Below, one piece after another: positions 2,115-59,507 of a stretch of DNA of 64,000 nucleotides (position 1 is its first letter; each line of letters begins with the position of its first letter). The DNA is from Halorubrum hochsteinianum. GTDB taxonomy: Archaea; Halobacteriota; Halobacteria; Halobacteriales; Haloferacaceae. Made by a program: the position numbers and the translations under genes. The stretch is from NCBI RefSeq assembly GCF_023702125.1, contig NZ_CP098415.1, positions 2,170,001-2,234,000 of the forward strand, written 5' to 3'. The notes beneath the pieces are model-generated. The model was not told where the DNA came from, did no database searches, and saw only the letters and a program-made list of their open reading frames with translations.

Positions 2115-2351
2115 ATGAGCCTCGCGAAGCCGTGGCGCGACCTCGACCGCTCGACGGTCGGGAGCGCGCCGGACCGCTACGCGCTGTACGAACTGGGCGA
2201 CGCCGACGGCGACACGGTCGGGTTCGGCACGGGCGTCCTCCGCGACGAACTGAAGGAGGCGCTCGCGTACGGCGACGCCCCGAAGGTGCGCTGGGAGTTG
2301 GCGGAGTCGGCCGACCACGCCGAGCGCCTGCTCGCGGACCACACGGACTGA
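2115..2351 (+). CDS. small conserved haloarchaeal protein (78 aa)
   Basis: A 78-residue acidic protein (MSLAKPWRDLDRSTVG...) with a YALYELGD segment followed by a predicted helix carrying Lys/Glu. The layout (short beta hairpin, then helix) and full-length pattern fit a haloarchaea-only family filed, as I recall, as DUF7508. The function is unknown. It follows the 1631 gene by 26 bp and precedes the ferredoxin gene by 71 bp on the same strand. Confidence 0.7.
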   Translation: MSLAKPWRDLDRSTVGSAPDRYALYELGDADGDTVGFGTGVLRDELKEALAYGDAPKVRWELAESADHAERLLADHTD

Positions 2352-2421
2352 CCGACCCCCTCCTTGCGAGAGCGCGGGAACGACCGACAGACGAAAGTCC
2401 GGCGGCCGCCGAGAGGACGAC

Positions 2422-2799
2422 ATGAGCGATGAGGCCGAGACCGACGGCGACGAGGCCGCGACCGACGGCGGCGAGGAGGTACTTCGCGCGAGCGACCTCG
2501 GCGGGGAGGGGCCGCCGGTGGAGGAGAAGCCCTACAAGATCGTCTTCGAGGCGAACAAGTGCTTCGGGGCGGGGAAGTGCGCCGAGGTCTCGGACAACTG
2601 GGTGATGGACGTGGTGAGCGGGATGGCGAAGCCGGAGACGTACTACATCGGCGAGGAGGACTTAGACGAGAACGTCCGCGCGGCGGAGGCGTGTCCGGCC
2701 AAAAAGGAGGCGGGCGTGATCCACGTCGTCGACCGCCGGACCGACGAGGAGATCGCGCCGGACCCGCACGGCGACGGGACGCTCTCGGTCGACTGGTAG
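2422..2799 (+). CDS. single-cluster ferredoxin
   Basis: A 125-residue acidic protein. After about 45 acidic residues comes a ferredoxin fold with KCFGAGKC (two Cys) and a distal ACPAKK Cys, the pattern of small 3Fe-4S/4Fe-4S single-cluster ferredoxins that pass electrons to partners such as cytochrome P450s or 2-oxoacid enzymes. The first motif has fewer Cys than a classical CxxCxxC, so a 3Fe-4S cluster or a non-Cys ligand is possible. It is cytoplasmic with no signal. No obvious redox partner is adjacent; the gene is followed by tRNA-Leu. Confidence 0.85.
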   Translation: MSDEAETDGDEAATDGGEEVLRASDLGGEGPPVEEKPYKIVFEANKCFGAGKCAEVSDNWVMDVVSGMAKPETYYIGEEDLDENVRAAEACPAKKEAGVIHVVDRRTDEEIAPDPHGDGTLSVDW

Positions 2800-2857
2800 G
2801 GCGTCCGGCCCGGGCTTCCGAAAGGTGTTTCACCCCGCCGCGGGTAGCCGAATCCGC

Positions 2858-2942
2858 GCGGGGGTGGCTGAGCCTGGCCAAAAGCGGCGGACTTAAGATC
2901 CGCTCCTGTAGAGGTTCGAGGGTTCGAATCCCTTCCCCCGCA
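2858..2942 (+). tRNA. tRNA-Leu (anticodon TAA)
   Basis: An 85-nt class II tRNA. The acceptor stem pairs gcggggg with cccccgc, with A as discriminator. The anticodon stem gcgga/tccgc holds the loop cttaaga, giving anticodon TAA (2894-2896). A long variable arm is present, as expected for Leu, followed by a T arm with gttcgaatc. No CCA is encoded. Confidence 0.96.
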
Positions 2943-2945
2943 TGG

Positions 2946-2974
2946 CGCGGCGCTCACACATCGTGAGCGCCGCG
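2946..2974. repeat. 12-bp perfect inverted repeat just after tRNA-Leu
   Basis: cgcggcgctcac (2946-2957) and gtgagcgccgcg (2963-2974) are perfect inverted repeats with a 5-nt loop, beginning 4 bp after the tRNA. No T-run follows, so it is not a standard archaeal terminator. It may be a processing or attachment-site structure. Confidence 0.7.
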
Positions 2975-3050
2975 GCTCGGCGCAGAAGGGATTCGAAGCA
3001 GGGAGCGGGAGGAGAGCGAGCGTAGCGAGCGAACGGGAGCGACCGTGGAG

Positions 3051-3068
3051 CGAATCCCTTCCCCCGCA
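3051..3068 (+). repeat. duplicated 3' end of tRNA-Leu (possible attachment-site remnant)
   Basis: These 18 bases are identical to the last 18 bases of tRNA-Leu (2925-2942). The two copies start 126 bp apart in the same orientation. A partial copy of a tRNA 3' end is the hallmark of integration at a tRNA. Here the interval is too short to hold an element, so it would be a remnant. Ten of the bases also occur inverted at 2986-2995, allowing a larger stem. Confidence 0.7.
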
Positions 3069-3117
3069 CTCCTACGGCGAGCACACTGCGAGCCGCACGC
3101 CCGGACCGTCGTCCCGA

Positions 3118-3525
3118 TCAGCACTCGATGTCCGTGACCTGAGCCAGCTGCGGGCGCTCGTCGGCGGGATGCTCGTACCAGAAGTTGAAGCGGAGACAGT
3201 AGTCCTCGTCGAGGTCGTCGACGCCGAGGATGTTGACGCTCCCGGCGAACTCCTCGACGCTTCCGTGTAACGCGACCGGCGACGCGTCTCCGCTCGGAGT
3301 TATGGTCACCCGCTCGGTGACGCCCGCGTCGGTACGGTGTGACTGCCAGTCCAGCATCCCGGACTCGGTTTCGAGCGCGAGGTGAAACGTCCGTGCCTGA
3401 TCGTCTGTGTTCGTGAGTTCGACGGCCACCTCTCTGAGAGAGCCGTCGGACGCGAACTGACCCGCACAGCCGGCGAGACCAGACAGTACGGCGGTCGTAC
3501 CGAGGAGGGCTTGTCGGCGTCGCAC
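3118..3525 (-). CDS. small lipoprotein of unknown function
   Basis: A 135-residue protein if started at GTG (complement of 3523-3525), which gives VRRRQALLGTTAVLSGLAGC, a Tat/lipobox signal with the lipid-anchored Cys at about residue 20. The mature part is beta-rich with no further membrane helix (VAVELTNTDDQARTFHLALE, then CLRFNFWY) and ends DIEC. The fold resembles small immunoglobulin-like lipoproteins of haloarchaea; the function is unknown. An upstream in-frame ATG at 3591 would add 22 residues before the signal and is less likely. It stands alone between tRNA-Leu and a small membrane gene. Confidence 0.7.
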   Translation of the reverse strand: MRRRQALLGTTAVLSGLAGCAGQFASDGSLREVAVELTNTDDQARTFHLALETESGMLDWQSHRTDAGVTERVTITPSGDASPVALHGSVEEFAGSVNILGVDDLDEDYCLRFNFWYEHPADERPQLAQVTDIEC

Positions 3526-3653
3526 GATACAAGTCACGCCCAGCGCCGGTAAGTACGTTACCCGTGCTAAGCGATTCGAGGTGTAACCCATCGACCGCCG
3601 AGAGTTTTAACCGAGCCTGCGGCGAGTAACCTGCGAGCAGGTGCGGAGACCGT

Positions 3654-3872
3654 TCACAACCGCTCGCCGAGCCGCCGCGTCACCCATCCGTATCCACGTC
3701 TGAGCAGTCGGCCGGACCCGATCAAGGTCAACACCGCCGCGCCGGCCACGACGCCGAGATGGACGATCCGGAACGACGGGACGGGCGTGTATCGGCCGGC
3801 GACGAGGGTCACGACGAGGCCGAGCCACAGGAGGTACGCACCGACGGCGAGTCGGTAGAGGGCCGCGTACAT
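3654..3872 (-). CDS. small two-helix membrane protein
   Basis: A 72-residue protein (MYAALYRLAVGAYLLWLG...) with two strongly hydrophobic segments (about residues 8-26 and 38-54) and a basic C-terminus (RRGYGWVTRRLGERL), consistent with a small inner-membrane protein with a cytoplasmic basic tail. I recognise no family. It lies 60 bp downstream of the MoaD-like gene on the same strand and may be its operon partner. Confidence 0.55.
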   Translation of the reverse strand: MYAALYRLAVGAYLLWLGLVVTLVAGRYTPVPSFRIVHLGVVAGAAVLTLIGSGRLLRRGYGWVTRRLGERL

Positions 3873-3932
3873 GGCTTTCGGTGGGGAGCGAGTCGTGAAA
3901 AACGTGCCGGACGAAGCGGTGGACGGCGCGCG

Positions 3933-4379
3933 CTAGCAGCAGAACATGAACGGGTAGACGAGCGCGACGCGGTCGCCCTCCTCCAGTTCGGTGTCGAAGC
4001 CGTTCTCGTTCTCGTTGAAGTGACCGTTGACGAGGATGCGGGCGTACGCGATGGTCTGCTCGCCGACGGGGTTCTTCGACCACGTGCCGGGGAGTTCCTC
4101 CGGCGTCGGGGCCCACCCGCTGTGGGTGGCGTCGGACTCGGACTCCGCGATCAGCATGTCCTGGAGTTCGGGGTAGTCCTCGAACAGTTCGTCGAGGAAC
4201 GCGCGGAGCGTGTCGCCCTCGAAGGTGTACTCGAACTCGTACTCCCCGAGTTCCGTGCGCACGTGGCCGGTACACCGGACGGTGACGGTCGTCTCCGCCT
4301 CGGTCGCGGTCGCCTCCGTGTCTCCCGGGACCGACTCCGTTTCGGCCGCCTTGTCGGCCATCTCGCTGGTCTGAGCCAT
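3933..4379 (-). CDS. MoaD/ThiS-fold protein with an unusual C-terminus
   Basis: A 148-residue protein from the ATG at 4379 (MAQTSEMADKAAET). After an acidic leader of about 30 residues comes a ubiquitin-like beta-grasp sequence (VTVRCTGHVRTELGEYEF, then LRAFLDELFEDYPEL, then ILVNGHFNENENG) that matches MoaD/ThiS sulfur-carrier proteins, including the late LEEGDRVALVYPF strand. True carriers end in Gly-Gly, the site of adenylation and thiocarboxylation; this protein ends FMFCC. It therefore probably does not act as an ordinary sulfur carrier. It may bind pterin or metal near a tungsten or molybdenum enzyme, but no such enzyme is adjacent. Confidence 0.75.
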   Translation of the reverse strand: MAQTSEMADKAAETESVPGDTEATATEAETTVTVRCTGHVRTELGEYEFEYTFEGDTLRAFLDELFEDYPELQDMLIAESESDATHSGWAPTPEELPGTWSKNPVGEQTIAYARILVNGHFNENENGFDTELEEGDRVALVYPFMFCC

Positions 4380-4621
4380 GTGTACGCGTAGGGTCCCGGT
4401 CCGGGTAAGCCGGTCTGCGAACATGTTCGCGGCACTCCCGAGCGGCGCGGAGCGAGACCGGTCGGCTCCCGCCGTCGAGCGTGCGGATCTCGTTCGGGGG
4501 CTCGACGAGCCGGCGGAGAGAGCAATCGAAACCACCGGACGGCGAGATATTCGAGCGTCGGGAATCCGACCGAACATGTTGCCGCTAAACGCATAGGCCG
4601 TCTCGGCGGTACGGACGCCCG

Positions 4622-4720
4622 ATGAAGCTCACTCGCAAGACGATCGCGAAGGTCATCGTCGCGGCGTTCCTGTTGAACGGCTGTGTTGAATCGCCATACG
4701 GCGGCAGGGTAGGTCGCTAA
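4622..4720 (+). pseudogene. 5' fragment of a small gene cut by the insertion sequence
   Basis: From the ATG at 4622 the frame reads MKLTRKTIAKVIVAAFLLNG, a normal-looking haloarchaeal start with a hydrophobic segment. It then enters the terminal repeat of the insertion sequence and stops at 4718-4720. No clear continuation is visible to the right of the element, so the rest of the gene was lost or changed beyond recognition. Confidence 0.5.
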
Positions 4721-5621
4721 ATCAAAGGCGTTGAAGCGGGAAGATTCGGTTGCCTATGACACAAATCTCCCGCTTCATCGGGGAGGTTGTGCCGGTTGCT
4801 CAAAGAGTTACTGGCGATGGAGGCGAATCCGCCGCCCCGGAAGGCGGCGGCGGATTCGCCGACTACGCACTCGTTTCCCTCCACTGTCTGCGAATTTACC
4901 TCGATACATCGTACCGCATGACGATCGGCCTGCTCAAAGAGATGCCACAAATAACCGGGGAGATCGGCCTCAGCGCGGCCGATCTCCCTGCGCCGTCCAC
5001 GTTGTGTAAGGCGTTCGACCGGATCAGTATGAGTGTTTGTCGAGTGCTGCTGCGCCAGTCGGCGCAGCTGCACGATCTCTCCGAACACGCCGCGATCGAC
5101 GCCACATTCTACGACCGCTCACCAGCCAGCCGCCACTACTGCCAGCGAATCAGCTACCGCGTTCAAAAGCTGAAAGTCACGAAACTCGTCGATACAGCGT
5201 CGCAAGCTGTCCTTGACGTTCACTGCTCGACGAACCGAGAAGGAAGTGACGCAGATCTCGCTGAGCAGATCGCCCGCCGGAACGCGGGCGATCTGCGGTC
5301 TCTTGCGGCCGATAAGGGCTACGACAAGAAATCGCTCCGCGAAGGATTACGCGATCTTGGGATCAGACCGCTGATCAAGCACCGCATCTTCGCGCCGTAC
5401 GACCACGCACACAACGCCAGAATCGACGATAATCGCTACAATCAGCGCTCTATGACCGAAACCGTGAACTCGGCTGTGAAGCGCTCGCTCGGCTTCGCCG
5501 TGCGAGCGCGGTCCTGGTTCCGTGAGTTCCGCGAGATCGCTCTGATGTGTATGGTCTACAACATCAAGCGCTTCGTCAAACAGTGAATCTCTACGCCTTA
5601 CAGCGATTCAACACAGCCGTT
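4676..5621 (+). mobile_element. IS5-type insertion sequence, complete (946 bp)
   Basis: One transposase gene lies between perfect 19-bp terminal inverted repeats: left 4676-4694 (aacggctgtgttgaatcgc) and right 5603-5621. Size and a single DDE transposase fit the IS5 family elements common in haloarchaea. No direct target duplication is visible: the bases outside the repeats (...cctgttg / acggggg...) do not match. One flank may therefore have been rearranged after insertion. Confidence 0.88.
4756..5586 (+). CDS. IS5 family transposase
   Basis: A 276-residue DDE transposase starting at ATG 4756 (MTQISRFIGEV); a TTG two codons earlier is possible. The catalytic acidic triad is visible in order: Asp in AAIDATFYDRS (about residue 115), Asp in LAADKGYDKKS (about 188) and Glu in SMTETVNSAVKR (about 234), with the Y..R...E-type spacing of IS5 enzymes. 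The frame is intact and ends 35 bp before the right end of the element. Its codon use is less GC-biased than that of the neighbours. Confidence 0.93.
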   Translation: MTQISRFIGEVVPVAQRVTGDGGESAAPEGGGGFADYALVSLHCLRIYLDTSYRMTIGLLKEMPQITGEIGLSAADLPAPSTLCKAFDRISMSVCRVLLRQSAQLHDLSEHAAIDATFYDRSPASRHYCQRISYRVQKLKVTKLVDTASQAVLDVHCSTNREGSDADLAEQIARRNAGDLRSLAADKGYDKKSLREGLRDLGIRPLIKHRIFAPYDHAHNARIDDNRYNQRSMTETVNSAVKRSLGFAVRARSWFREFREIALMCMVYNIKRFVKQ

Positions 5622-5716
5622 ACGGGGGACCGGCGTCGAGTCGTTGGAAGCCCGCCCGCCTTGCCAGTATCCGGCCACCCTAGTCGCTCCCGACGGACGG
5701 TCGAGACAGTTCGCAG

Positions 5717-6349
5717 ATGGCCACCACGGCGTTTCTCCACGGACTCGCGCTCTCGCTCGGCCTGATCGCCGCCGTCGGGCCGCAGAACGTGTTCGTGTTC
5801 CAGCAGGGCGCGTCCCAGCCGCGACTCCGCCGCTCGCTGCCGACCGTCCTCACGGCCGGCGCGGCCGACACCCTCCTCATCCTGGCCGGGGTGCTCGGCG
5901 TCTCCGCCGCGGTGATCGAGTTCGCGTGGCTTCGGACGGCCCTCCTCGCGGCCGGGGTGGCGTTTCTGATCTACGTCGGGTGGACGCTCGTTTCGGTCCC
6001 TGCCGCGGGCCTCGGCCCGCGTGACGAGACGCGCCTGAGCGTGCGCGAACAGGTCGGATTCACCGCCTCCGTCTCGCTGCTCAATCCGCACGCGATACTG
6101 GACACGATCGGCGTGATCGGAACGAACGCGCTGGCGTACGCGCCCCCGCGACGGTGGGCGTTCACCGCGGCGTGCCTCCTCGTCTCGTGGGGGTGGTTCC
6201 TCGGACTGGCCACCGGCGGTCGACTCCTCGGAAACTCCGTCCTGTCCGACGGCCGACTCCGGTATCTCAACGTGCTCTCGGCGGGGGTGATCTGGGTGGT
6301 GGCGCTCTACATGGCGTGGCGGCTGCTCGGACTCGTCGGCGTCCGCTGA
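5717..6349 (+). CDS. LysE/ArgO-type amino-acid exporter
   Basis: A 210-residue membrane protein with about six hydrophobic helices and the LysE signature near the start (LSLGLIAAVGPQNVFVFQQG). The NPHAILDT motif after the third helix is characteristic of LysE/ArgO exporters of basic amino acids. Its length is normal for the family. It starts at ATG 5717, about 95 bp after the insertion sequence, so any original promoter may lie in or before the inserted element. The substrate cannot be read from sequence; export of arginine or lysine is the family expectation. Confidence 0.88.
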   Translation: MATTAFLHGLALSLGLIAAVGPQNVFVFQQGASQPRLRRSLPTVLTAGAADTLLILAGVLGVSAAVIEFAWLRTALLAAGVAFLIYVGWTLVSVPAAGLGPRDETRLSVREQVGFTASVSLLNPHAILDTIGVIGTNALAYAPPRRWAFTAACLLVSWGWFLGLATGGRLLGNSVLSDGRLRYLNVLSAGVIWVVALYMAWRLLGLVGVR

Positions 6350-6505
6350 CTCGGTCGTGGCGCGCCCGCTGTCGCGTAATCGTCGCTGACGGCGACTGCG
6401 ATCGGACGGCGGCGAAGACAGCGACCGGTGGGTCCGGTAGCACGGGAACTCGGTTCATCCTGTGTCTTACCAGCGTGGCCCACCAACCGACGGTACGCTT
6501 CGAGT

Positions 6506-6937
6506 ATGGACGACGGAACTCCTCTCCAGTCAGCGTCGGACTCCCCCGACGAGAAGCAGGTCGTCCGGTGTGCCGCCTGCGAGTCCGCCCTTCGGTCACC
6601 GGGACGGGGCAGCCTCTCGTTTCTGCTGCTCGACGGGCTGACGGTCCCGCTCGTCGGATGTGACGACCATCTGGAGGAGTTCCGGACGCTCTGCGGGCTC
6701 GCGACCGACGGTCGCGCCGACCTCCTCGATCACCGCCCGGCCGGCGGCGTCAACTGCCCGAGTTGTCGTCACGCACCGCAGCGGCCGCGCCAACGGGTCA
6801 TCCCGGTCGGGAACGGCGGGCTGGCGGTGCTCGCGTGCGAAACGCATCAGTCCGACGTCTTCTCTCGGTTTCGAACCGGCCTCCGAGTACGCGAGCATCT
6901 CACTGATTCGATCGACGCGGCCTCCACCGACCCGTGA
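6506..6937 (+). CDS. haloarchaeal Cys-rich protein (possible zinc-binding)
   Basis: A 143-residue protein from ATG 6506. It has paired metal-ligand motifs: CAAC (about residues 23-26), CDDH (about 52-55), CPSCRH (about 85-90) and CETH (about 114-117). This suggests one or two zinc sites built from similar halves, each followed by an 'EFRTLC'-like helix. There is no membrane segment. I know of no named family; similar proteins in haloarchaea are annotated as hypothetical. A regulatory or nucleic-acid-binding role is possible but not shown. Confidence 0.7.
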   Translation: MDDGTPLQSASDSPDEKQVVRCAACESALRSPGRGSLSFLLLDGLTVPLVGCDDHLEEFRTLCGLATDGRADLLDHRPAGGVNCPSCRHAPQRPRQRVIPVGNGGLAVLACETHQSDVFSRFRTGLRVREHLTDSIDAASTDP

Positions 6938-7005
6938 CGCATCAGGGACAGACGCGCAAAGGCGGGGTCGCGGCCGACGTGCCACGCCACCCGCCCGAGG
7001 GACCG

Positions 7006-7035
7006 ATGAGCGACCGCCTGTCGGAGGAGCGATGA
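7006..7035 (+). promoter_or_regulatory. 9-codon upstream reading frame overlapping the kinase start
   Basis: ATG at 7006 opens a frame reading MSDRLSEER and its TGA (7033-7035) overlaps the ATG of the kinase (7032) as ATGA. It may be a leader frame allowing coupled reinitiation, or chance. No peptide function is proposed. Confidence 0.35.
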
Positions 7036-7973
7036 GCGACGGTCAGCGGGGCGTGTTGGCCGTCGGCGACGCGACGGTCGACCTCTACCCGGCGGACGGG
7101 TCGCCGATCGCCCCCGGCAGCCGGTTCGAGTGGCACGTCGGCGGCACGGCGACGAACGTCGCGCGATGTGCGGCCTCGCTCGGCAGCGAGACCGGCCTCG
7201 TGACGAACCTCGGGACCGACGTCATGGGGGAACTGGCCGCCCGACACCTCGCGGACGGTCCGGTGGACACGACCCGCGTGACGCGGGTCGACGCGCCCTC
7301 GCCGCTCACGCTGTACGTCCCGACGGAGGACGGGGACCGGTGGAACGCGTGGGTGACCGGGAGCTGCTACGGGTTCACCCCGCCCGCCGATCCGGCGTCG
7401 CTCGTCGCCCCGTACGAGTGGGTCCATCTGGAGGGCGTCACGCTGCCGACCGCGGTGAACCAGCGTCCGGTTCGACGCCTCGCCGAGGCGGCCGCAGAGA
7501 GCGGGACCCGGGTCTCGTTCGACCTGAACGGACGCCCGAACCAGTGGGACGACCCCGAGACCTACCGACGGGCGCTCCGCGACGTTTTGCGTCGCTGCGA
7601 CCTGATCTTCGCGGGGACGGACGACCTCGCGGTGGCGGGCCTCGATCGCGCGCCGGCGGGGCTCCTCGAACTGCTGCCGTCGGACCACTCGGCGACGGCG
7701 TTCGTCACCGACGGGTCGGAAGCGACGACCGCGCTGACGATCGAGGACGGTGGGATCACCGAGCGAGTGACCGCGACGCCGCCGTCGACGACGGTCGCGA
7801 CCGCGGCCGGGGCCGGCGACGCGTTCGCCGGCGCGGTCCTCGCCGCGTCGGACCACGGCGTCTCGGACTTGGAGGAGCTAGCGACCGTCGGGAACGCGGC
7901 CGGCGCGGCCGCCGTGGCGACGACCGGGCCGTTCGACGCCGACGGCCTCGGTCCGAGCAGCGATCTGCTCTGA
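7032..7973 (+). CDS. PfkB-family carbohydrate kinase
   Basis: A 313-residue ribokinase-fold sugar kinase. The N-terminal substrate motif is seen in GDATVDLYP and in WHVGGTATNVARCAASLG (about residues 37-54). The C-terminal PfkB signature TAAGAGDAFAGAVLAA (about 256-271) contains the catalytic Asp of GAGD and the anion hole. The length is standard. It could phosphorylate a sugar such as 2-keto-3-deoxygluconate, fructose or ribose; the sequence alone does not decide. The next genes are unrelated PH-domain proteins, so context gives no clue. Confidence 0.88.
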   Translation: MSDGQRGVLAVGDATVDLYPADGSPIAPGSRFEWHVGGTATNVARCAASLGSETGLVTNLGTDVMGELAARHLADGPVDTTRVTRVDAPSPLTLYVPTEDGDRWNAWVTGSCYGFTPPADPASLVAPYEWVHLEGVTLPTAVNQRPVRRLAEAAAESGTRVSFDLNGRPNQWDDPETYRRALRDVLRRCDLIFAGTDDLAVAGLDRAPAGLLELLPSDHSATAFVTDGSEATTALTIEDGGITERVTATPPSTTVATAAGAGDAFAGAVLAASDHGVSDLEELATVGNAAGAAAVATTGPFDADGLGPSSDLL

Positions 7974-8130
7974 CCGGACGCCGTCTGCGGCCTTCGACGG
8001 AGCCGACGAACCCGGGATTTCGGGGCCCCGTTCGTGAGGGCGACTTCGAACGCGTCACCGGTGACGCCTGACGGAGCGATGGCTATTTTTGTCCGCGACG
8101 AAATCGCTTCTACAGGTGACATTTCGATAG

Positions 8131-8793
8131 ATGTCCGACGCAGCCCTCCAAGCCGAGCCGACGACTGGCTCGGAGAACACGGCCGAATTAGACCTCGACT
8201 GGCTGTCCCTAGAGGACGGCGAGGAGATCCGCTGGGCGAGCACCCCGCACAAGTACAGCATCGTTCCGGCGCTCGTCGTCGGCCTCCCCCTCTCCGTGGT
8301 CCTCATCGGTATCCCGCTGATCGCGGCGAGCTACCTCCAGTACACCAACACCAACTACGTCGTCACGAACAAGGGGCTCTACAGCAAGCGCGGGATCCTC
8401 TCGCGAGACGTCCAGCAGATCGGCTTCGACAAGGTACAGAACATCTCCTACTCCCAGTCGGCCATCGGCTCGTCGCTGGGGTACGGCTCCGTCGACGTCA
8501 GCACGGCCGGCGGCTCCGGCGTCGAACTCCAGTTCCGCAGCATTCCGAACCCGGCGGCCGTCCAAGAGCTGATCTCGAAGGAGATCGACAAGCGTCAGCG
8601 GAGCGAGTCCGGCGACGCGGACGAAACCGACGACGTGCTCGATCAGATCCTCGTCGAGCTCCGCGCGATCCGCTCGGCGGTGGCGGACGACGGGGATCGG
8701 GCGACCGGCGTCCCGCCGAACTCGGCCGACGTCGACGTCGAGGCGAGTCCCAACCGGGCCGCGGACGGAGCGGTGGAACAGGGCGATGAGTGA
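8131..8793 (+). CDS. bacterial-type PH domain membrane protein (YdbS-like) A
   Basis: A 220-residue protein. An acidic N-terminus precedes GEEIRWASTPHKYS, then two close hydrophobic helices (about residues 48-72), then the bPH2 core (NTNYVVTNKGLYSKRGI; QQIGFDKVQNISYSQSAIGSSLGYGSVDVSTAGG). The tail after about residue 155 is charged and helical. The family (bPH2/DUF304) is membrane-bound and often occurs as paralogous pairs; its biochemical role is poorly known. A T-rich TATA-like stretch (gctatttttg, around 8090) lies upstream. It overlaps the second PH-domain gene by 8 bp. Confidence 0.88.
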   Translation: MSDAALQAEPTTGSENTAELDLDWLSLEDGEEIRWASTPHKYSIVPALVVGLPLSVVLIGIPLIAASYLQYTNTNYVVTNKGLYSKRGILSRDVQQIGFDKVQNISYSQSAIGSSLGYGSVDVSTAGGSGVELQFRSIPNPAAVQELISKEIDKRQRSESGDADETDDVLDQILVELRAIRSAVADDGDRATGVPPNSADVDVEASPNRAADGAVEQGDE

Positions 8794-9316
8794 CTCGTGG
8801 CTGTTCCTTCGCGACGACGAGACGGTCGTGTGGGAGGGGACGCCGCGGCTGTCGGCCGCGATCGGCGGCGTCGCCGTCGGGACCGTCATCGCCGGGCTGA
8901 GCCTCGCGGCGGCGGCGACTACTGACCCGCGCTTGGGGGCGGCGAGTCTCGTCGGACTCGCGGTCATCGCGTGGTCGGTGCTCCGGGTCCGCCGCACCAA
9001 CTACGTCGTCACGACCCGCGCCGTGTGGCTCAAGCGGGGCGTCCTCGGGCGGACGGTCCGCCGCGTCGGCCTGCCGCAGGTCCAGAACACGGCCTACAGC
9101 CAGTCGGTGACCGGGTCGCTGTTCGGGTACGGGACCGTCACCGTGGAAGTCGCCGGCGGGCCGGATCTGGCATTCCGCCGGATCGACGACCCCGAGACCG
9201 TTCGGCGAACCATCACCAGTCGGATCGGCGGCGACAGCGCGGACGTTCCCGGGACCGTCGATCAGTGGCGGGAAGTGCTCGCGATCGTCCGCGATCTCAA
9301 GGCCGCGGTCGAGTAG
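8786..9316 (+). CDS. bacterial-type PH domain membrane protein (YdbS-like) B
   Basis: A 176-residue paralogue of the upstream gene. It has the same order: ETVVWEGTPRLS, two hydrophobic helices (about residues 22-66), then a bPH2 core (RRTNYVVTTRAVWLKRGVLG; RRVGLPQVQNTAYSQSVTGSL; FGYGTVTVEVAGG). The 8-bp overlap with the first gene implies translational coupling, and the products probably act together in the membrane as a heteromer (inference from paired family members elsewhere). It ends with a short helical tail. Confidence 0.88.
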   Translation: MSDSWLFLRDDETVVWEGTPRLSAAIGGVAVGTVIAGLSLAAAATTDPRLGAASLVGLAVIAWSVLRVRRTNYVVTTRAVWLKRGVLGRTVRRVGLPQVQNTAYSQSVTGSLFGYGTVTVEVAGGPDLAFRRIDDPETVRRTITSRIGGDSADVPGTVDQWREVLAIVRDLKAAVE

Positions 9317-9414
9317 CGAACCACGAGCGGACCTTGGACGAATATCGGCGAGAGCGGCCGTGAAGTTGCTTTTCTCTTCGAAGTGACGCGGCGATCGACG
9401 GGGGATCTGCGACC

Positions 9415-9519
9415 GTGACCGTCACACGTTGCCCACTCGTCGTCGACGCAGAGGGGTGTCCCTCGATCGAACACTCCGTGAAATTCGAGGGGAACGTGGC
9501 CGCTGACCTCCGGAAGTAA
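9415..9519 (+). CDS. possible 34-aa Cys-containing small protein
   Basis: A GTG-started frame reads VTVTRCPLVVDAEGC... and ends ADLRK. It has two Cys, no membrane segment, and sits in a 265-bp gap between the PH-domain pair and the chemotaxis gene. A T-rich stretch lies about 40 bp upstream. I do not recognise it, and it may be non-coding. Confidence 0.25.
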   Translation: MTVTRCPLVVDAEGCPSIEHSVKFEGNVAADLRK

Positions 9520-9581
9520 CTCGCGTACACGGCAGCGACGCCGGACTCTCTCGCAGGCGGTCGTCCGCGGCGCTGCGGCCC

Positions 9582-10901
9582 TCAGACTGACCGGTTCATT
9601 ACGCTCGCGAGCCGCCGGTCGATCTCTTCGACCTCCCGGGTGAGACGGGTCACCATCTCGGTCTGACTCTCGTTTTCGTCCGCGATCTCTTCGATCTCGT
9701 CGCTGACGACGTGCGCCCGGTCGGAGACGTCGTCGACGGCGCTCGATATCTCCTCGGCCACGCTCGCCTGTTCGTCGGTCGCGGCGGCGATCTCGCTGAT
9801 CCCGCTTTCGGTCTGTTCGACGGCCCGCAGAATCTGTTTCTGATTTTCGAGGACGCCCTGGATGTCGTCTCTCGCGGACTGGATCTCGTCGTTGGCCGCC
9901 TCCACCTCGTCGGTCGTCTGGGTCGCCTTCGCTTTGATCCGCGCGACGATCGCTTCGATCTCGTCGGCCTGGTCTTGCGACCGGTTCGCCAAGTTCTTCA
10001 CCTCGTCCGCGACGACGGCGAACCCGTCGCTGTCGCTGCGCGCCGCCTCGATGTTGGCGTTCAACGCGAGCATGTTCGTCTGCTCGGCGATGTCGTTGAT
10101 AACGCCGACCAGCTCTTCGACCTGTTCGATCTCGTCTCGCAGCTCCGCCACGTCGTCGGCGACCGTCGCCGACGTCGCGGCCGTGTCGTCGACCTGATCG
10201 ATGACTTCCTCGGCAGTCTCGACGGAGTCTTCAGCCAGCTCTCTCGATTCGGCGCTCTGGCTGCTGACCTCCTCGGCGCTGGAGGCGATCTCCTCGACGG
10301 TGGCGCTGAACCCGGAGACGTCGCCCTGGGTATCTTCGAGTTCGGCCGCTTGTTCGGAGACCAGCTGCGTGATCTCGTTCGATCGGTCCGCGACCTCGGA
10401 GGTCGACTCACTCAGTTGGGCCATCGACGTCTCCACGTTGTCCGAGAGCTCCGCTTGGAGGTCCGACAGCGTCTCGCGCTGTTCGACGACGGTGGTCACG
10501 TCGAACAGCAACTCGACCGCCCCGACGACCTCCCCGGTCGGCGTCTGGATGGGCGTCCCGATGGCGCGGGCGTGGGCTCGCGTCCCGTCGGGCCGCTCCG
10601 CGGAGCGGAACTCGTCTTCGCGGATGGGAGTTCCCGTGCGGACGACCTCCTCGGCGAGCGTCTCGTCTTCGCCCTCTGTTCCGAACACGTCGTACGCGTT
10701 GGTGCCGACGGCCTCGCTCGCCGGCAGGCCGAGGAGCTCGGCCGTCGCCGCGTTCCACTGGGTGATGTCGCCGGCAGCGTCGACGACGAACGCCGCCTCG
10801 GGAAGGTCCGCGATGAACTGTTCGAAGGTGTGTCGCCAGAACGCTCCGTCCGACGCCGTCTCCGTGGCTTGGAGCTGGTCGTTGTGCGTCTCTGTGGACA
10901 T
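9582..10901 (-). CDS. soluble methyl-accepting chemotaxis protein with PAS domain
   Basis: A 439-residue transducer without transmembrane helices. A PAS domain (about residues 25-145; LPEAAFVVDAAGDITQWN, GTNAYDVFG) senses a cytoplasmic or redox signal and is followed by a long coiled-coil signalling domain. The conserved CheA/CheW-binding hairpin tip is present (EQTNMLALNANIEAARS, then FAVVADEVKNLANRS, about 270-305), as are Glu/Gln-rich methylation helices. It should join cytoplasmic chemoreceptor arrays and control archaellum switching. No other che or arl genes are nearby. The upstream non-coding stretch is AT-rich. Confidence 0.93.
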   Translation of the reverse strand: MSTETHNDQLQATETASDGAFWRHTFEQFIADLPEAAFVVDAAGDITQWNAATAELLGLPASEAVGTNAYDVFGTEGEDETLAEEVVRTGTPIREDEFRSAERPDGTRAHARAIGTPIQTPTGEVVGAVELLFDVTTVVEQRETLSDLQAELSDNVETSMAQLSESTSEVADRSNEITQLVSEQAAELEDTQGDVSGFSATVEEIASSAEEVSSQSAESRELAEDSVETAEEVIDQVDDTAATSATVADDVAELRDEIEQVEELVGVINDIAEQTNMLALNANIEAARSDSDGFAVVADEVKNLANRSQDQADEIEAIVARIKAKATQTTDEVEAANDEIQSARDDIQGVLENQKQILRAVEQTESGISEIAAATDEQASVAEEISSAVDDVSDRAHVVSDEIEEIADENESQTEMVTRLTREVEEIDRRLASVMNRSV

Positions 10902-11001
10902 ACTGGCAGGTATCAGTTGGGACTCATGTGGGTTACGCCGGGATTATTGGAGTTGATACGGAATCCGCCGGTTCCACCACTCGGCTAGTCGGGGGCCCGG
11001 A

Positions 11002-11559
11002 TCAACCGACTCCCGTTGAACTAATATTTTTCAACCGTGATGTTGTCCGGAATAACTGGTCGGCCGGAACTGTGTGCCGAGTGTTACCCTTCGACCGTGA
11101 ACTCGTCCGAACAGACCCGTGAAGACGCGGTGCGGGTGTTCGCCCACAGTCGTCTCGCACCTGTAACCACACGCCGTCTTCGTAGTGGGCGACCGCCGTC
11201 GCACACTCGACGGTGTCGTCCGACTCGTCTCTGACGTCACTGACCGGTTTCGACGTCCACTCCGTGTCGGCCACCCGCGCAGCTACCACGTACTCACCCG
11301 AGGTCGATCCCCAATCGCAGTCGACGACCGCTCCGTGAATCCGTCCGTCCTCCTTCTCTCGTAGTTGACGGGACGACTCGTGGACCGTCTCGCCGTCCCG
11401 GTCGACGCGCAGGTCGATCCGGACCGGATCGGACGTGTGGTTCACGGTCGCGAACCGCGCGAGACGAATCGGGGCGTCGTCGACGACGGTGTCGAGACAG
11501 CCGGCGGTCGACGCCGCCGCAGTAAGCCCGATAGTCGAGAGGAGGGAACGTCGTTACAC
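11002..11559 (-). pseudogene. lipoprotein gene with a stop codon right after its start
   Basis: The frame encodes a clear lipoprotein beginning RRSLLSTIGLTAAASTAGC (lipobox), followed by a beta-rich body (VRIDLRVDRDGETVHESS, then GEYVVAARVADTEW). The codon before RRS is TAA (11554-11556), preceded by GTG (11557-11559), so the apparent start is followed immediately by a stop. No other start codon precedes the signal. A later GTG (11445) would make a 147-residue protein without its signal. The tail after VRDDCG becomes Arg/Ser-rich, which suggests a second frameshift near the C-terminus. Expression as a functional lipoprotein is doubtful unless the call is a sequencing error. Confidence 0.6.
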
Positions 11560-53794: not shown

Positions 53795-54271
53795 CTATGT
53801 ATCTTGGTTGCGAGCTATAAGGTGCATCGCTGCCCTCCGCTGGTATTTAATATGGCTCAAGTGATTGTGGATTATACTGATAGATTTCTGTTGTTCATCT
53901 TCAGAGAGTTCAGACAGATGATCGATATCGCTCATTACATGTCTTGCACCTCCATGAAATGCGATTAATGCCGACATCTCATCCTCATCCAGCCGTCCAA
54001 GCTCCCCTGATATTGACTCATAAACCTGATTATGAAGCCAGTTCCCGTGTGGAACACCACTCCCATCTGGGTTATGAGGCCACTTGTCTAGTGCATCCAT
54101 CGTTTCCAACTCAGACATCAATGCCTGTCTGACCCATTCTGTTCTTTTTTCTCTTTTTGAACTTTGTAATCTATGTTGCGCGTAGTACGTCCCTATTGAA
54201 CCTATTATCCCACCAAGAAGTGCTGAAAGTAAAGTCGCAGCCGATGTTGAGAGTTCTGGAAACCCTATCAT
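53795..54271 (-). CDS. AT-rich orphan with one membrane anchor (158 aa)
   Basis: MIGFPELSTSAATLLSALLGGIIGSIGTYYAQHRLQ is a single N-terminal helix (about residues 10-29), followed by a charged helical cytoplasmic domain (EKRTEWVRQALMSELETMDALDKW, then LDEDEMSALIAFHGG) with no known motif. The DNA is much less GC-rich than the core genes and has clear AT-rich flanks. It lies just beside tRNA-Arg, so it may have come with an integrated element. The function is unknown. Confidence 0.7.
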   Translation of the reverse strand: MIGFPELSTSAATLLSALLGGIIGSIGTYYAQHRLQSSKREKRTEWVRQALMSELETMDALDKWPHNPDGSGVPHGNWLHNQVYESISGELGRLDEDEMSALIAFHGGARHVMSDIDHLSELSEDEQQKSISIIHNHLSHIKYQRRAAMHLIARNQDT

Positions 54272-54330
54272 AATTATGTTTGTGTCTTTGTAGCAATTAT
54301 ACTATCCCGTGCCGATTCGCTCGCAGATAG

Positions 54331-54405
54331 CGGGCACGGTGGGATTCGAACCCACGACCATCGGATTAGAAGTCCGACGCTCTATCCGGGCTGAGCTACG
54401 TGCCC
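54331..54405 (-). tRNA. tRNA-Arg (anticodon TCT)
   Basis: A 75-nt tRNA on the minus strand. The acceptor stem gggcacg pairs with cgtgccc, with G as discriminator. The anticodon stem tcgga/tccga holds the loop cttctaa, giving TCT. The T arm contains gttcgaatc. A run of T (54431-54436, complement) supplies a TATA-like element about 28 bp upstream of its 5' end. Confidence 0.95.
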
Positions 54406-54478: not shown

Positions 54479-57310
54479 TCAGTACTCGTGCTCGACCACG
54501 ACGTTCCCGTCCGAATCGGTGACGGACACCGTGTCGCCGCCGTTGTTCCAGATCGCCGTTCCGGTCCGGCCCCAGTATAGTTCCGTATCGGTGTCGGTCC
54601 CCCCGCCCGAGTACAGGGTGACCTGCTTGCCCGACGGGAGCGTGAACCCGTCCGGGAACGAGTACTCCTTCGTCGTCTCGTCCGAGACGGTGTAGCCGGT
54701 GAGATCGAGGGCGTCGTCGCCGGCGTTCTCGAAGACGACGTTCTCCTGCGGGTCTTCGAGGTCGTCGCCCTCCGCGTCCGCGTTCACTTCGACGAACGCC
54801 AGCGACCCTCCGGACCCGCCGTCCCCGCCGTCGTCAGCGGTGAACGGCGTGAACAGTTCGTCGAAGCCGTCGGCGAAGTTAGTCGTCGTTGGGTTCGCGG
54901 GGTCGCCGAGATTGTTCTCCCCGTCGGTCACCGGCGTGTCGGTGAACGCGACGTCGGCATCCAACTCGCTCACCACCGGGTCGAAGTTTCCGAGCGCGTC
55001 GGCGTCCGCGGCGGTGCCGAGGAGGACGACCGCCCCGCCCGCGTCGGCGAAGTCCGCCACCGCGGTCCGTTCGGTCGAACTCAACGCCTCCGTCGGCGTC
55101 GAGAGGATCAGCGCGCGGGCCGCGGGGTTCCCGTCCGAATCGAGCAGGTCCGGTCCGGGATCGGTCACGAGGTCGACGACGCCTTCGAGGTCGATGAACG
55201 CCTCGTCGCCGGGCGCTTGGCCTTCGAGGTAGCGCAGGTAGTACGCGGCGTCCTCCGCGGAGACGGCGAAGTCGGCCGCGAACTGCCCGTGGCCGCCGTC
55301 GACGATCACCGGGCCGGTCGCGTCCCCGACGCGGTCGATAACGTTCGTCAGGAACGGGAAGACGCCGTACGCCTCGACGCCGGGACCGCCCTCGCCGCCC
55401 TCGAAGGACTCCTCGATCAGCGGGCCGCCGAGCGCGGCGACGTTGGCGTCGGGGTCGAGCGCGACGAGCGTCTCGCCGGCCTCGGACGCGACGGGCTCCT
55501 CGGGGCCGGACACCGCGACCGGCTCCGGGAAGAAGAGCTCGTCGACCGGGTCGTCGCGGCGCTCGTCCGTCCCCGCCTGATCGGAGATGTCCCAGATGCC
55601 GTCGCCGGCGTCCCGGGCGGCGCGTTCGAGGTCCCAGTACTCGTCGTGCTTTCCGAGCCCGGAGTCGTACACGCGGGCCCAGCCCTCCTCGATGACGTTC
55701 GCGTTGTAGACGCCCCCGTCGGGGAGTTCGAGGAAGCCGAGCAGGCGGCCGAAGTTCCCGCGGAGCCCCTCGTTCTCGTCGAAGGACAGGGTGACCGTGC
55801 TGCCGACTTCCAGTTCGCTCTCGGCGTAGTCCGTCGCCTCGTCGCCCTTGTCCTTGAGCGCCGGGGCGTCGTCGATCCCCTCGTACTCTTCGAGGCGCTC
55901 CTCCGTGCTGCCCGTCTCGGGCGTGTCGATGCCGAGGATCCGGACCGTCTCGACCTGTCCTTCTGGGAACTCCACGTCGGCGGTGTCGCCGTCGGCGACG
56001 CTCGTTATCTCGACCTCGTACTCCTCGCTCGGGTCGAGTTCGAGCCCGAGCCCTTCGCGGTCGGCGAACAGCCCGGGGTAGTTCTCGGTGTCGAGCGCGG
56101 TCGTCGTGGGGACGAACTCGGAGCCCGCGTTGCTCTCGCCGTCGATCACCTGGTTGTCGTTGAACCGGATCTGCGTCCCGATTCCGGTCGCCAGCGCGTT
56201 GAGGTTGCCCGTCTCGTCGAAGTCGTTGTAATCGGACTGGTCCATCAACACGATCAGCCCGCCAGCGTCGGCGAACGACGAGAGTGCGCCGATCTCGTCG
56301 TCGGAGAACGCTGCCGACGGCGACGTGATCACGATCGCCGACGCCGGACCGAGGAGGTCGTCTTCGAGGCTCGTCGTCGCCTCCAGCGCGTAGCCGTTCT
56401 CGTCGGCGTAGTCCGCGAACGCCGAGTGGCTGTCCAGTCCGTAGAACTGGTCGTGGCCCTCGTCCCAGAGGACGGTGTCGGAGTCGGCGTACTCGTCGAG
56501 GAGGTTCAACAGCACCTCCTCGTTGCCGTACTCGCCGAACTGGACGTCGTCCTGCGCGAAGGGGAACCCGAACGCGACGACCGGCAGGTCCTGATCGACC
56601 GCCATCAGCGGCAGCGGCGCGTCGTCCGGGTAGTTCGTGTTGTCGCCGTTCCCGTCCGCGTCGGTCGACCCCGCCGTCGACTCGGCCGCGACCGCGATCG
56701 CCTCCTCCGGGAGGTAGCCGTCTTCCGCCAGCAGGCTCGCGGTCGAGTCGAAGACGAGTTCGTCGACGAACTCCGTTGGTGCCTCGCCCGGCCCGTCGCC
56801 GGGGTCCTCGATCGGCCCGTCGCCGATCCCGATGGTGATCGCCACCTCGCCGTCGGTCGGGTCGTCGCCGGCGTCGACCTCGACGCCGACCGCGACCGAC
56901 TCGCCGACGCCGAGTTCGACGGTCGGGTCCTCGCCGAGCGCATCGTCGCCGACGGTCAGGTCGAAACTCGCGTCGCCGAGATTCCCGTCGTCGACGGTCG
57001 CGAACAGGCCGAGATCCTCGGTCCCTTGGTTGCTGACCTGGAACACCTCGCCGAGCTCGTAGACCGTGTTCGAGCCGAAGCCGGTCCCGCCGCCCTCGAC
57101 CTCCTCGAAGACTAGTGCGAGTTCGCCGTCGTCGTCGACGAACGCGAACTCCTCGTCGAGCGGGGTCAGCGAGAGCAGGGAACTCGCGTCGTCCGCGAGC
57201 GCGACGGTGGCGTCCCGCTCCGCCGTCGCCGTGTCGAACGCGCCCGTGGCGATCGCGCCGCCCCCGGCCGCGGTCGCGCCGAGTCCGATGAGGACGCTGC
57301 GGCGTCTCAT
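54479..57310 (-). CDS. large exported protein: DUF4350-type domains, nuclease, lamin-tail domain
   Basis: A 943-residue exported protein. Residues 1-170 resemble the following gene's N-terminus: MRRRSVLIGLGATAAGGGAIATGAFD is a Tat-like signal, then a DUF1102/SipW-like beta domain. A DUF4350-like part spans about 180-428 (LPVVAFGFPFAQDD, VLWDEGHDQFY, AIVITSPSAAFSDDE). A thermonuclease (SNase-like) domain lies at about 429-577 (DGDTADVEFPEG, TVRILGIDTPETGS, ANVIEEGWARVYD). A second DUF4350-like part is at about 590-820, and a lamin-tail domain at about 833-943 (LAFVEVNADAEG, LDLTGYTVSDET, WGRTGTAIWNNGGD). It probably acts outside the cell, cutting DNA or RNA. It overlaps the upstream gene by 4 bp (ATGA). 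Confidence 0.85.
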   Translation of the reverse strand: MRRRSVLIGLGATAAGGGAIATGAFDTATAERDATVALADDASSLLSLTPLDEEFAFVDDDGELALVFEEVEGGGTGFGSNTVYELGEVFQVSNQGTEDLGLFATVDDGNLGDASFDLTVGDDALGEDPTVELGVGESVAVGVEVDAGDDPTDGEVAITIGIGDGPIEDPGDGPGEAPTEFVDELVFDSTASLLAEDGYLPEEAIAVAAESTAGSTDADGNGDNTNYPDDAPLPLMAVDQDLPVVAFGFPFAQDDVQFGEYGNEEVLLNLLDEYADSDTVLWDEGHDQFYGLDSHSAFADYADENGYALEATTSLEDDLLGPASAIVITSPSAAFSDDEIGALSSFADAGGLIVLMDQSDYNDFDETGNLNALATGIGTQIRFNDNQVIDGESNAGSEFVPTTTALDTENYPGLFADREGLGLELDPSEEYEVEITSVADGDTADVEFPEGQVETVRILGIDTPETGSTEERLEEYEGIDDAPALKDKGDEATDYAESELEVGSTVTLSFDENEGLRGNFGRLLGFLELPDGGVYNANVIEEGWARVYDSGLGKHDEYWDLERAARDAGDGIWDISDQAGTDERRDDPVDELFFPEPVAVSGPEEPVASEAGETLVALDPDANVAALGGPLIEESFEGGEGGPGVEAYGVFPFLTNVIDRVGDATGPVIVDGGHGQFAADFAVSAEDAAYYLRYLEGQAPGDEAFIDLEGVVDLVTDPGPDLLDSDGNPAARALILSTPTEALSSTERTAVADFADAGGAVVLLGTAADADALGNFDPVVSELDADVAFTDTPVTDGENNLGDPANPTTTNFADGFDELFTPFTADDGGDGGSGGSLAFVEVNADAEGDDLEDPQENVVFENAGDDALDLTGYTVSDETTKEYSFPDGFTLPSGKQVTLYSGGGTDTDTELYWGRTGTAIWNNGGDTVSVTDSDGNVVVEHEY

Positions 57311-58596
57311 TGGATCCCCTCCCTGTCCGCGAAGAGACCAGCGAACTCGTCGCTGTTGAACTCGCTCGTGGTGAAGTCGAACGCTCCAGAGGGGTCTTCC
57401 ACTTGGTCCACATTGAACCTGAAGTCGAGGCCCAGTTCGTCAGCGATTTCGTTCAGGTTCGCGGTTTGGTCGTTGTTTTGGAAGGCGCTCTGGTCGAATA
57501 GCAGTACTCCGCCACCGTCGGAGGCGAAGTCACTCAGTGCGGTGAGTTCGTCGTCGGTAAACCCGTCCGCGGGCGTACTGATCGCAACACCATCCGCAGT
57601 TGAAAGGTCTCCCTCGAAGTCCTCGGTCGCTTCGATCGAATACCCGTTCTCACCAGCGTACGTGACGAACTGGCTGAACGAGTTCGGACCATCGTCTTCG
57701 AGCGTCCAGAACTGCCCGTGGCTCTCGTCCCAGAGAACCGTGCCCGAACCGATGAGTTCGTCCATCAGATTCAGAACGAACTCCTCGATACCCGTGCCGA
57801 AGTCGGATCGCCCGTCGTCGAGCGACTGCATCGTTCCGAATCCGGCGACGGGACTCGATCCGTCGACGGAAACGAGCGGAATCGGATTTTCTTCGTAGAC
57901 GACCGGATCGCCTTGGTAATCGTTAAAATTGACACCGGTGTCGGACGCCGTCACGGCAACCACCGAATCGTCGGCGAGTTCACTCTCCCCGTCGGCCGCG
58001 ATCTGACTTGCCGTCGACCGGAACTGGATCGAGTCGATCGTCTCGGGCGGCTCCGGTTCCGGATCCTCCGGCGCGTCGTCGCCCTCCTCGAAGGCCGCCT
58101 CGATGGTGATGTCGATGTCGAGTTCGTTCGTCACGTCGACGTCGCCCGTCTCGACGTACGTGCCGACGGACTGCTCGGAGCCGGTCTCCAGCGTGACGGC
58201 GTTGTCGGGGTCGTCGAGCGCGCCGTCGCGGTCGCCCGTCGGATACAGTCGGAACTCCCCGTCGAACGAGCCGGTGTCGCTGGTCGCGGTGATCGAGACG
58301 GTCTCGGTCCCCTGATTCGCGATCGCGAACACCTCGTCGAAGAAGAACTGCGAGTTGCGCCCGATGCCGTCGCCGTCGCCCGACACGTCGCCGAACGCGA
58401 GCGCGAGTTCGCCGTCGCCGTCCGTCGTCGCGTACGCGCTCTTCGAGACGAGTCCGAGGTACGCGTCCTCGTCGTCCGCGAAGTTCACCGTCGCCGTCCG
58501 CTCCGCGCTCGCCGCGTCAAACGCGCCCGTGCCGATGAGTGTTATCCCGCCGATACCGCCGGCTGCCGCTCCCGTGATGAGTGTGCGTCGTCGCAT
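57307..58596 (-). CDS. exported protein with DUF1102-like and DUF4350-like domains
   Basis: A 429-residue exported protein and first gene of a two-gene operon. MRRRTLITGAAAGGIGGITLIGTGAFDAASAERT is a Tat-like signal; then a DUF1102/SipW-like beta domain (about 35-170; LGLVSKSAYATTDGDGELAL, FAIANQGTETVSITATS), and a DUF4350-like part (about 185-429; VLWDESHGQFWTLEDDG, GVAISTPADGFTDDELTALS). It ends DEFAGLFADREGIQ, matching the middle of the 943-residue neighbour (PGLFADREGLG), so it is that protein's truncated paralogue. It ends ATGA-overlapping the next start. Confidence 0.82.
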   Translation of the reverse strand: MRRRTLITGAAAGGIGGITLIGTGAFDAASAERTATVNFADDEDAYLGLVSKSAYATTDGDGELALAFGDVSGDGDGIGRNSQFFFDEVFAIANQGTETVSITATSDTGSFDGEFRLYPTGDRDGALDDPDNAVTLETGSEQSVGTYVETGDVDVTNELDIDITIEAAFEEGDDAPEDPEPEPPETIDSIQFRSTASQIAADGESELADDSVVAVTASDTGVNFNDYQGDPVVYEENPIPLVSVDGSSPVAGFGTMQSLDDGRSDFGTGIEEFVLNLMDELIGSGTVLWDESHGQFWTLEDDGPNSFSQFVTYAGENGYSIEATEDFEGDLSTADGVAISTPADGFTDDELTALSDFASDGGGVLLFDQSAFQNNDQTANLNEIADELGLDFRFNVDQVEDPSGAFDFTTSEFNSDEFAGLFADREGIQ

Positions 58597-58886: not shown

Positions 58887-59507
58887 ATGAACGTCATCGG
58901 AACCGTCGGTCTCCCCGGCAGCGGGAAGGGGGAGGCGGCGAGCGTGGCCGAGGCGGCCGGCATCCCGGTCGTCGTGATGGGCGACGTGATCCGCGCCGAG
59001 TGCCGCCGCCGCGGGCTGGACCCGGCGCAACACCACGGGCGGATCGCGGGGGCGCTCCGCGAGGAGGAGGGCGACGACGCCATCGCCGCGCGGACGCTCC
59101 CGCGGATCCGGGAGGCCGCGGCCGAGAGCGACCGCGGCGGGACCGTCCTCGTCGACGGGCTCCGCTCGACGGTCGAGCTCGAACGCTTCCGCGAGGCGTT
59201 CGGCGACGACTTCACCCTCGTCGCGATCCGCGCGCCGTTCGAGGTCCGCGCCGAGCGGCTCGGCGAGCGCGGCCGCGACGACTCGGACTCCGATCTGGAG
59301 GCGCTCCGCGAGCGCGACGACCGCGAGATCGAACTCGGACTCGGCGAGACCTTAGAGCGGGCCGACGTCGAGATCGACAACACCGACAGCCTCGCGGCGT
59401 TCCGCACGCGGGTCCGCGAGGTGCTCGGCGTCGAGAGCGAAGCGGAGGCGAAGGGGTCTGCTCCGACCGACGCCGAGACGCCGAGCGCCGGGGGTGACGG
59501 CGCGTGA
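58887..59507 (+). CDS. UPF0200 P-loop nucleotide kinase-like protein
   Basis: A 206-residue P-loop protein: VIGTVGLPGSGKGEAASVAE has Walker A at residues 8-15, VVMGDVIRAECRRRGLDP, and TVLVDGLRSTVELE like dephospho-CoA kinase/adenylate kinase relatives. The UPF0200 family, known in archaea, has no settled substrate. The C-terminus has a Glu/Ala/Gly-rich tail. It overlaps the UPF0201 gene by GTGA. Confidence 0.88.
   Translation: MNVIGTVGLPGSGKGEAASVAEAAGIPVVVMGDVIRAECRRRGLDPAQHHGRIAGALREEEGDDAIAARTLPRIREAAAESDRGGTVLVDGLRSTVELERFREAFGDDFTLVAIRAPFEVRAERLGERGRDDSDSDLEALRERDDREIELGLGETLERADVEIDNTDSLAAFRTRVREVLGVESEAEAKGSAPTDAETPSAGGDGA

Follow-up and report, generated by a model that had tools for sequence, protein, structure and literature searches.

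A Taf-type pilin domain heads a predicted nuclease and its nuclease-free partner in Halorubrum, with GIFT modules exchanged between alleles

Described relatives of the gene pair

Free DNA is plentiful in the brines inhabited by haloarchaea, which use it as a source of phosphorus. By architecture, the closest tested counterpart of the gene pair treated here, P0001 and P0002 of Halorubrum hochsteinianum, is Hvo_1477 of Haloferax volcanii, an exported protein that ends in a lamin-tail domain (LTD) behind its SNase catalytic domain and is required for growth on DNA as phosphorus source (PMC3929857). Because that paper records no free nuclease in the medium of H. volcanii, the activity is read as cell-bound. 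The order SNase–LTD is common to Hvo_1477 and P0002, but a GIFT module intervenes in P0002, and Hvo_1477 comprises only 327 amino acids (aa), carries a lipobox anchor, and has neither GIFT modules nor a pilin domain nor a partner gene. The pair is encoded in a stretch of 64,000 nucleotides (contig NZ_CP098415.1, positions 2,170,001 to 2,234,000; hereafter the window) of a Halorubrum genome of 3.06 Mb.

Other parts of the two proteins resemble other systems. The fimbriae called Tafi are cited in PMC12687288 as haloarchaeal filaments that depend on twin-arginine translocation (Tat), with TafA as their core. The subunits TafA and TafE and the Natrinema pilus 9p0a have a twin-arginine signal and a DUF1102-type beta-sandwich in common with the window proteins, but Taf subunits are enzyme-free proteins of about 200 aa, and the window proteins score far under the TafA and TafE equivalog cut-offs and are encoded outside the taf locus. 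TasA/TapA biofilm fibres and archaeal bundling pili are likewise comparable as donor-strand fibres; in TasA fibres, the N-terminal donor strand of one subunit completes its successor, and SipW cleaves off the signals (PMC9674648); enzyme cargo of such fibres is not described in the literature searched. The GIFT modules match the IFT52 fold and Pfam DUF4350 and partly resemble the IMPa metallopeptidase; unlike IFT52 and DUF4350/GldG-type domains elsewhere, they are predicted to be extracellular, flank a nuclease, and carry a conserved DExHxQ-type motif; the archaeal arCOG01314 proteins have a membrane anchor (PMC5898192). Besides Hvo_1477, other haloarchaeal proteins join SNase and LTD, and Hlac_1867 combines the LTD with a metallo-beta-lactamase domain. 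Each part of P0001 and P0002 is of a known kind; the combination of pilin domain, nuclease, and nuclease-free partner, and the pattern of a constant anchor with exchanged modules, are not described in the literature searched. The original prediction, which was made from the sequence of the window, knew of SNase/lamin-tail fusions but of no described system with the duplicated layout.

Organization of the gene pair

Both open reading frames are found at the coordinates of the original prediction, on the minus strand, and share 4 bp (ATGA). Their parts are as follows.

57307..58596, minus: P0001 (429 aa), with signal peptide, Taf-type pilin domain (DUF1102), and one GIFT/DUF4350-type module, without nuclease
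58504..58596, minus: P0001 signal peptide, residues 1-31 (MRRR..., AxA ahead of E32), from the sequence
58072..58503, minus: P0001 pilin domain (DUF1102), residues 32-175, from Pfam, mature-domain profile, and model
57310..58047, minus: P0001 GIFT/DUF4350-type module, residues 184-429, allelic family A
54479..57310, minus: P0002 (943 aa), with signal peptide, pilin domain, GIFT1, SNase, GIFT2, and LTD
57221..57310, minus: P0002 signal peptide, residues 1-30, from the sequence
56801..57220, minus: P0002 pilin domain (DUF1102), residues 31-170
56036..56776, minus: P0002 GIFT1 module, residues 179-425
55577..56029, minus: P0002 SNase domain, residues 428-578, active site D442, R457, D462, T463, E465, R522
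54821..55549, minus: P0002 GIFT2 module, residues 588-830, with the allele of the single-gene lineage, not of most same-site genes
54482..54811, minus: P0002 LTD, residues 834-943

P0001 is 44% identical to residues 1-424 of P0002 (E 8e-70) and ends at the point where P0002 continues into the nuclease. Reading frames, overlap, Pfam domains, and this alignment agree with the original prediction in showing a real gene pair with a shared N-terminal layout, and the Pfam scan recovers the SNase, the second DUF4350-like part, and the LTD that it placed in the 943-residue chain. Among the matches listed, the closest relative is H. tebenquichense, with 92% identity in P0002. The signal sequences of both precursors contain an RR motif and end in AxA-E, with no cysteine and no lipobox; the initial residues of P0001 match those of TafE, TafA, and the Tafi pilus precursors. 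The RR motif, the AxA site, and the homology to the Tat-dependent tafi suggest that both proteins are exported via Tat.

An SNase-type nuclease between GIFT modules

The Pfam scores of P0002 are clearly above cut-off for both SNase (38.2 bits; cut-off 21) and LTD (70.3 bits; cut-off 34.3). In the structure model of P0002 (mean predicted local distance difference test score, pLDDT, of 69), the LTD matches Lamin-B1, and residues 427-574 superimpose on S. nuclease with Z 18.0 and a root-mean-square deviation of 2.1 over 131 residues, which corresponds to an OB-type SNase fold. Residues D442, R457, D462, T463, E465, and R522 align with D21, R35, D40, T41, E43, and R87 of that enzyme. Three SNase motifs are present in 41, 42, and 42 of 43 relatives, two of the misses being edges of the cut-out sequences. 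The original prediction had made its nuclease depend on the catalytic Arg and Glu of the SNase family; since the six residues match the active site, all of them are in place. Nuclease activity of P0002 is very likely on the basis of sequence and model, and it is probably Ca2+-dependent. The best family match of the domain is the calcium-activated nuclease EcnA of NCBIfam (NF047969; 76 bits, E 3e-21), but P0002 misses the equivalog cut-off of 180 bits and also differs in domain layout. Papers that treat EcnA as a nuclease were absent from the literature searched.

DUF4350 is recognized by Pfam in two stretches of P0002 (34.1 bits; cut-off 30.4), and P0001 falls slightly under the same cut-off (26.5 bits). 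The module of P0001 (184-420) resembles IMPa (Z 12.1 over 189 residues), and its second half resembles IFT52 (Z 8.0; 2.5 A over 130 residues). The DExHxQ-type motif (D290, E291, H293, and Q295 in P0001) is invariant across 15 aligned rows. A binding or spacer role appears plausible for these modules. A circularly permuted GIFT module, with the N-terminal part ahead of the motif, was considered and dropped; the entire module is co-linear with IMPa. In SNase proteins from other loci (L012:7917-11363, L014:7905-10811, L067, and L068), an entire GIFT module interrupts the SNase domain itself, inserted after the DTPE...EWEGI stretch and ahead of the first long helix, with both SNase halves kept.

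The N-terminal domain belongs to the Tafi pilin family

Pfam assigns DUF1102 to the N-terminal domain of P0001 (29.4 bits; cut-off 22.2), whereas P0002 alone reaches 17.5 bits. By sequence profile and structure model, this domain of both proteins is a Tafi-family pilin domain. In a search with a profile of ten homologous mature domains (signal removed), all of which match DUF1102, the sole solved chain below E 0.1 was 9p0a (E 4e-6; next 0.22), titled “Structure of Natrinema sp. J7-2 Tafi pilus”. A chance resemblance caused by the signal peptide was rejected, because the profile of mature domains still matched 9p0a. The P0001 model (pLDDT 73) resembles 9p0a (Z 6.6, 109 aligned residues) and, about equally, a bundling pilus of Pyrobaculum, 7ueg (Z 6.7). 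Of the label “DUF1102/SipW-like” in the original prediction, only the first half stands, and the pilin identity of this first scaffold domain had been overlooked. SipW is the name of the peptidase, not of the pilin-type domain.

A taf locus is present in the same genome (contig G000:C1, ~2.330-2.336 Mb), with TafA (209 bits; cut-off 190), TafE (232; 155), TafC (461; 410), a TafF match under its cut-off (299; 420), and a SipW-like signal peptidase. P0001 and P0002 themselves map to 2.224-2.229 Mb, about 0.1 Mb outside this locus. Separately from the taf locus, L022 (G000:C1:608000-624000) contains at 2129-11305 another DUF1102/Taf-like cluster, which likewise includes a SipW-like signal peptidase.

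Exchange of GIFT modules between alleles

The GIFT modules of the pair are exchanged between alleles. In the GIFT1 tree, the genes at the same chromosomal site (same-site genes) form one clade (100/99); the GIFT2 tree rejects such a clade (approximately unbiased [AU] test, p 2e-5). The GIFT2 module of the window is 75-89% identical to that of a single-gene lineage and 48-59% identical to that of most same-site genes; the identity of the SNase domain next to it stays at 64-86%. The LTD falls into two types by identity, a split that is not significant in the AU test (p 0.126). The same pattern is evident in P0001, whose pilin domain is 90-95% identical in most species and whose GIFT module drops to 43-46% in most, dividing into family A of the window and family B of other species (43-46% identical). 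In one genome (G024), a single hybrid gene joins a pilin domain of P0001 type to remaining domains of P0002 type.

The two proteins have sister pilin domains (98/97), but their GIFT1 modules do not group (AU p 0.016), which rules out a simple tandem duplication. The internal duplication proposed originally therefore survives as a shared pilin domain but not as one intact duplication, the trees showing that GIFT modules were separately exchanged, an exchange that the prediction had missed. Together, sister pilin domains and exchanged GIFT modules point to a constant anchor with swapped cargo. Between the window and H. tebenquichense, the ratio of nonsynonymous to synonymous substitution rates (dN/dS) is 0.23 for P0001 and 0.29 for P0002 and increases with distance, indicating purifying selection on both genes.

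These data also bear on the possibility that P0001, as an incomplete copy of P0002, is decaying and serves no function. Although P0001 lacks nuclease and LTD and one hybrid gene suffices in G024, the dN/dS of about 0.2 between the closest species, the intact frame in eight genomes at the site, the stop at the identical domain border in each genome, and the swapping of the P0001 GIFT module itself as a unit make such decay very improbable.

Distribution and insertion site

The GIFT-SNase-GIFT core occurs in many genera of Halobacteriales, mostly without the pilin domain; with or without LTD, it is preceded in many of them by a signal peptide alone. Some relatives have up to five GIFT modules or module parts. 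An even sampling of the phylum (393 genomes) gave 15 strong matches, all of them within the window's own order. Pilin-headed versions are found in Halorubrum, in G053, G080, and G060 (two other genera), and in the Halobacteriales metagenome-assembled genome QH_10_67_13. Recurrence in haloarchaea, which the original prediction raised as a check without having recognized it, is thus wide for the core; the pilin-headed pair occupies one site in Halorubrum, bordered by the following genes.

54330..54405, minus: tRNA-Arg (TCT), bordering the insertion site
58887..59507, plus: flanking kinase-like gene, about 100 bp from tRNA-Arg in non-carriers

The site is occupied, in whole or in part, in 10 of 52 Halorubrum genomes (eight pairs, one single hybrid gene, and one decayed pair) and is empty, with the tRNA directly adjoining the kinase, in all 20 non-carriers inspected. 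The only sign of mobility seen is the tRNA adjacency. In H. alkaliphilum (L126 / L021), a multi-GIFT SNase gene of another subtype occupies the same site in the opposite orientation, reflecting either independent arrival or inversion. On the other side of tRNA-Arg, the window encodes a 158-aa protein (53795-54271, minus) with no convincing family match, which is present also in H. tebenquichense and the non-carrier G050.

The insertion beside a tRNA and the swapping of entire modules at domain borders resemble loci under diversifying selection and would agree with a weapon or an anti-DNA defence, that is, a nuclease exported against competitors or against viral or incoming DNA, with an arms race driving module exchange. 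Such a role is nevertheless unlikely: beside the pair, neither a delivery system nor an immunity or defence gene was recognized (PADLOC was not searched), the matched flanks are conserved chromosomal genes, and viral contigs gave no relative by the patterns used, a result on which a viral origin of the gene was also rejected.

Proposed function

DNA scavenging is the best-supported role, because Hvo_1477, an analogous SNase–LTD protein, is required for growth on DNA. Among the roles originally proposed, it is the one that gains from this analogy, and nothing specific speaks for defence or competition; the secreted nuclease on a modular scaffold is itself well supported by the SNase fold and the six active-site residues, its activity being predicted. 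We regard it as an evenly balanced proposition that P0002 is a Ca-type nuclease that scavenges extracellular DNA and is shown on, or docked to, Taf-type fibres, with P0001 as its nuclease-free partner. P0002 would be exported by the Tat pathway and trimmed thereafter by a SipW-like peptidase, and donor-strand exchange would then let its N-terminal pilin domain enter, or attach to, a Taf-type fibre on the surface; docking and trimming of this kind are proposed because TasA fibres behave in this way (PMC9674648). The docked nuclease would stay near the cell and cut extracellular DNA or RNA at the surface, chiefly for food (phosphate, nucleosides). P0001 may be produced together with P0002 as a pilin-GIFT subunit and probably helps to space, dock, or assemble that section of the fibre, and the GIFT modules and LTD would be exposed binding or spacer modules, swapped between alleles.

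Several observations weigh against this proposal. The structural match to pilins (Z 6-7) is weak taken alone, although it agrees with the sequence match, and no pilin was matched when the mature domains of the two proteins were searched as single sequences, so that the link is one at the profile level. The two proteins score 27.5 and 35.0 bits against TafE (cut-off 155) and 17.3 and 21.9 bits against TafA (cut-off 190). A TafA-equivalog gene is missing in 6 of the 10 site carriers in Halorubrum, and the carrier fibre would therefore have to be taf-like. Most homologues elsewhere have no pilin domain, which is thus dispensable for the enzyme. In G005 the nuclease is split across two frames, and in G026 the pair has decayed. 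That a pre-folded chain of 943 aa leaves by Tat and enters a fibre is a prediction.

An alternative without any fibre would be a plain surface-bound or secreted nuclease that scavenges extracellular DNA, with a self-complete DUF1102 fold for folding or cell-wall contact and with P0001 as a binding protein or by-product; this joint reading is a real possibility, although short of an even chance. It accords with the pilin-free cores of many genera that have a signal peptide, with an AlphaFold model that keeps the N-terminal strand within its own pilin domain (at low confidence), and with a co-occurrence with tafA that is not strict. The gene is present in 4 of 10 site carriers and in 2 to 4 of the 42 other genomes (p 0.009-0.035 by Fisher's test), a difference that is not used as evidence because the test is uncorrected for kinship; TafC, found in 4 of 146 genomes at E 1e-30, is too rare for a co-occurrence test. 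By contrast, the first domain belongs specifically to the Tafi pilus family and heads several unrelated exported proteins, and the N-terminal strand polymerises in the related TasA fibres (PMC9674648).

The fibre-docked nuclease would have wider implications. Because the same head recurs before GH97 glycosidases (in two genera), VWA proteins, and beta-helix proteins, it can be viewed as a display anchor. Tentatively, the Taf-type pilin domain might be a general anchor of haloarchaea that displays nuclease, GH97, VWA, and beta-helix cargo in Tat-dependent donor-strand fibres, which would amount to enzyme-decorated archaeal pili. If so, a pilin-headed nuclease held on surface fibres would explain the absence of free nuclease in the medium of H. 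volcanii, and glycosidases with the same head would turn Tat-fimbriae into a scaffold for extracellular enzymes, which to our knowledge is not a known function of these fibres.

The glycosidases in question are proteins of 1300 aa in H. coriense (G047; L150:249-4151, minus) and 1311 aa in G060 (L152:450-4385, minus), both with a Tat-type signal, a Taf/DUF1102-type head, the GH97 domain, and a glucodextranase C-terminal module. Large proteins with the same type of head and VWA, beta-helix, or GLUG cargo are encoded at L155:10468-12030 (minus), L148:1620-4118 (plus), L156:1753-4020 (plus), and L149:106-2583 (minus). The heads of L149 and L150 are above the Pfam cut-off for DUF1102; the others came from searches with TafE/TafA or P0001.

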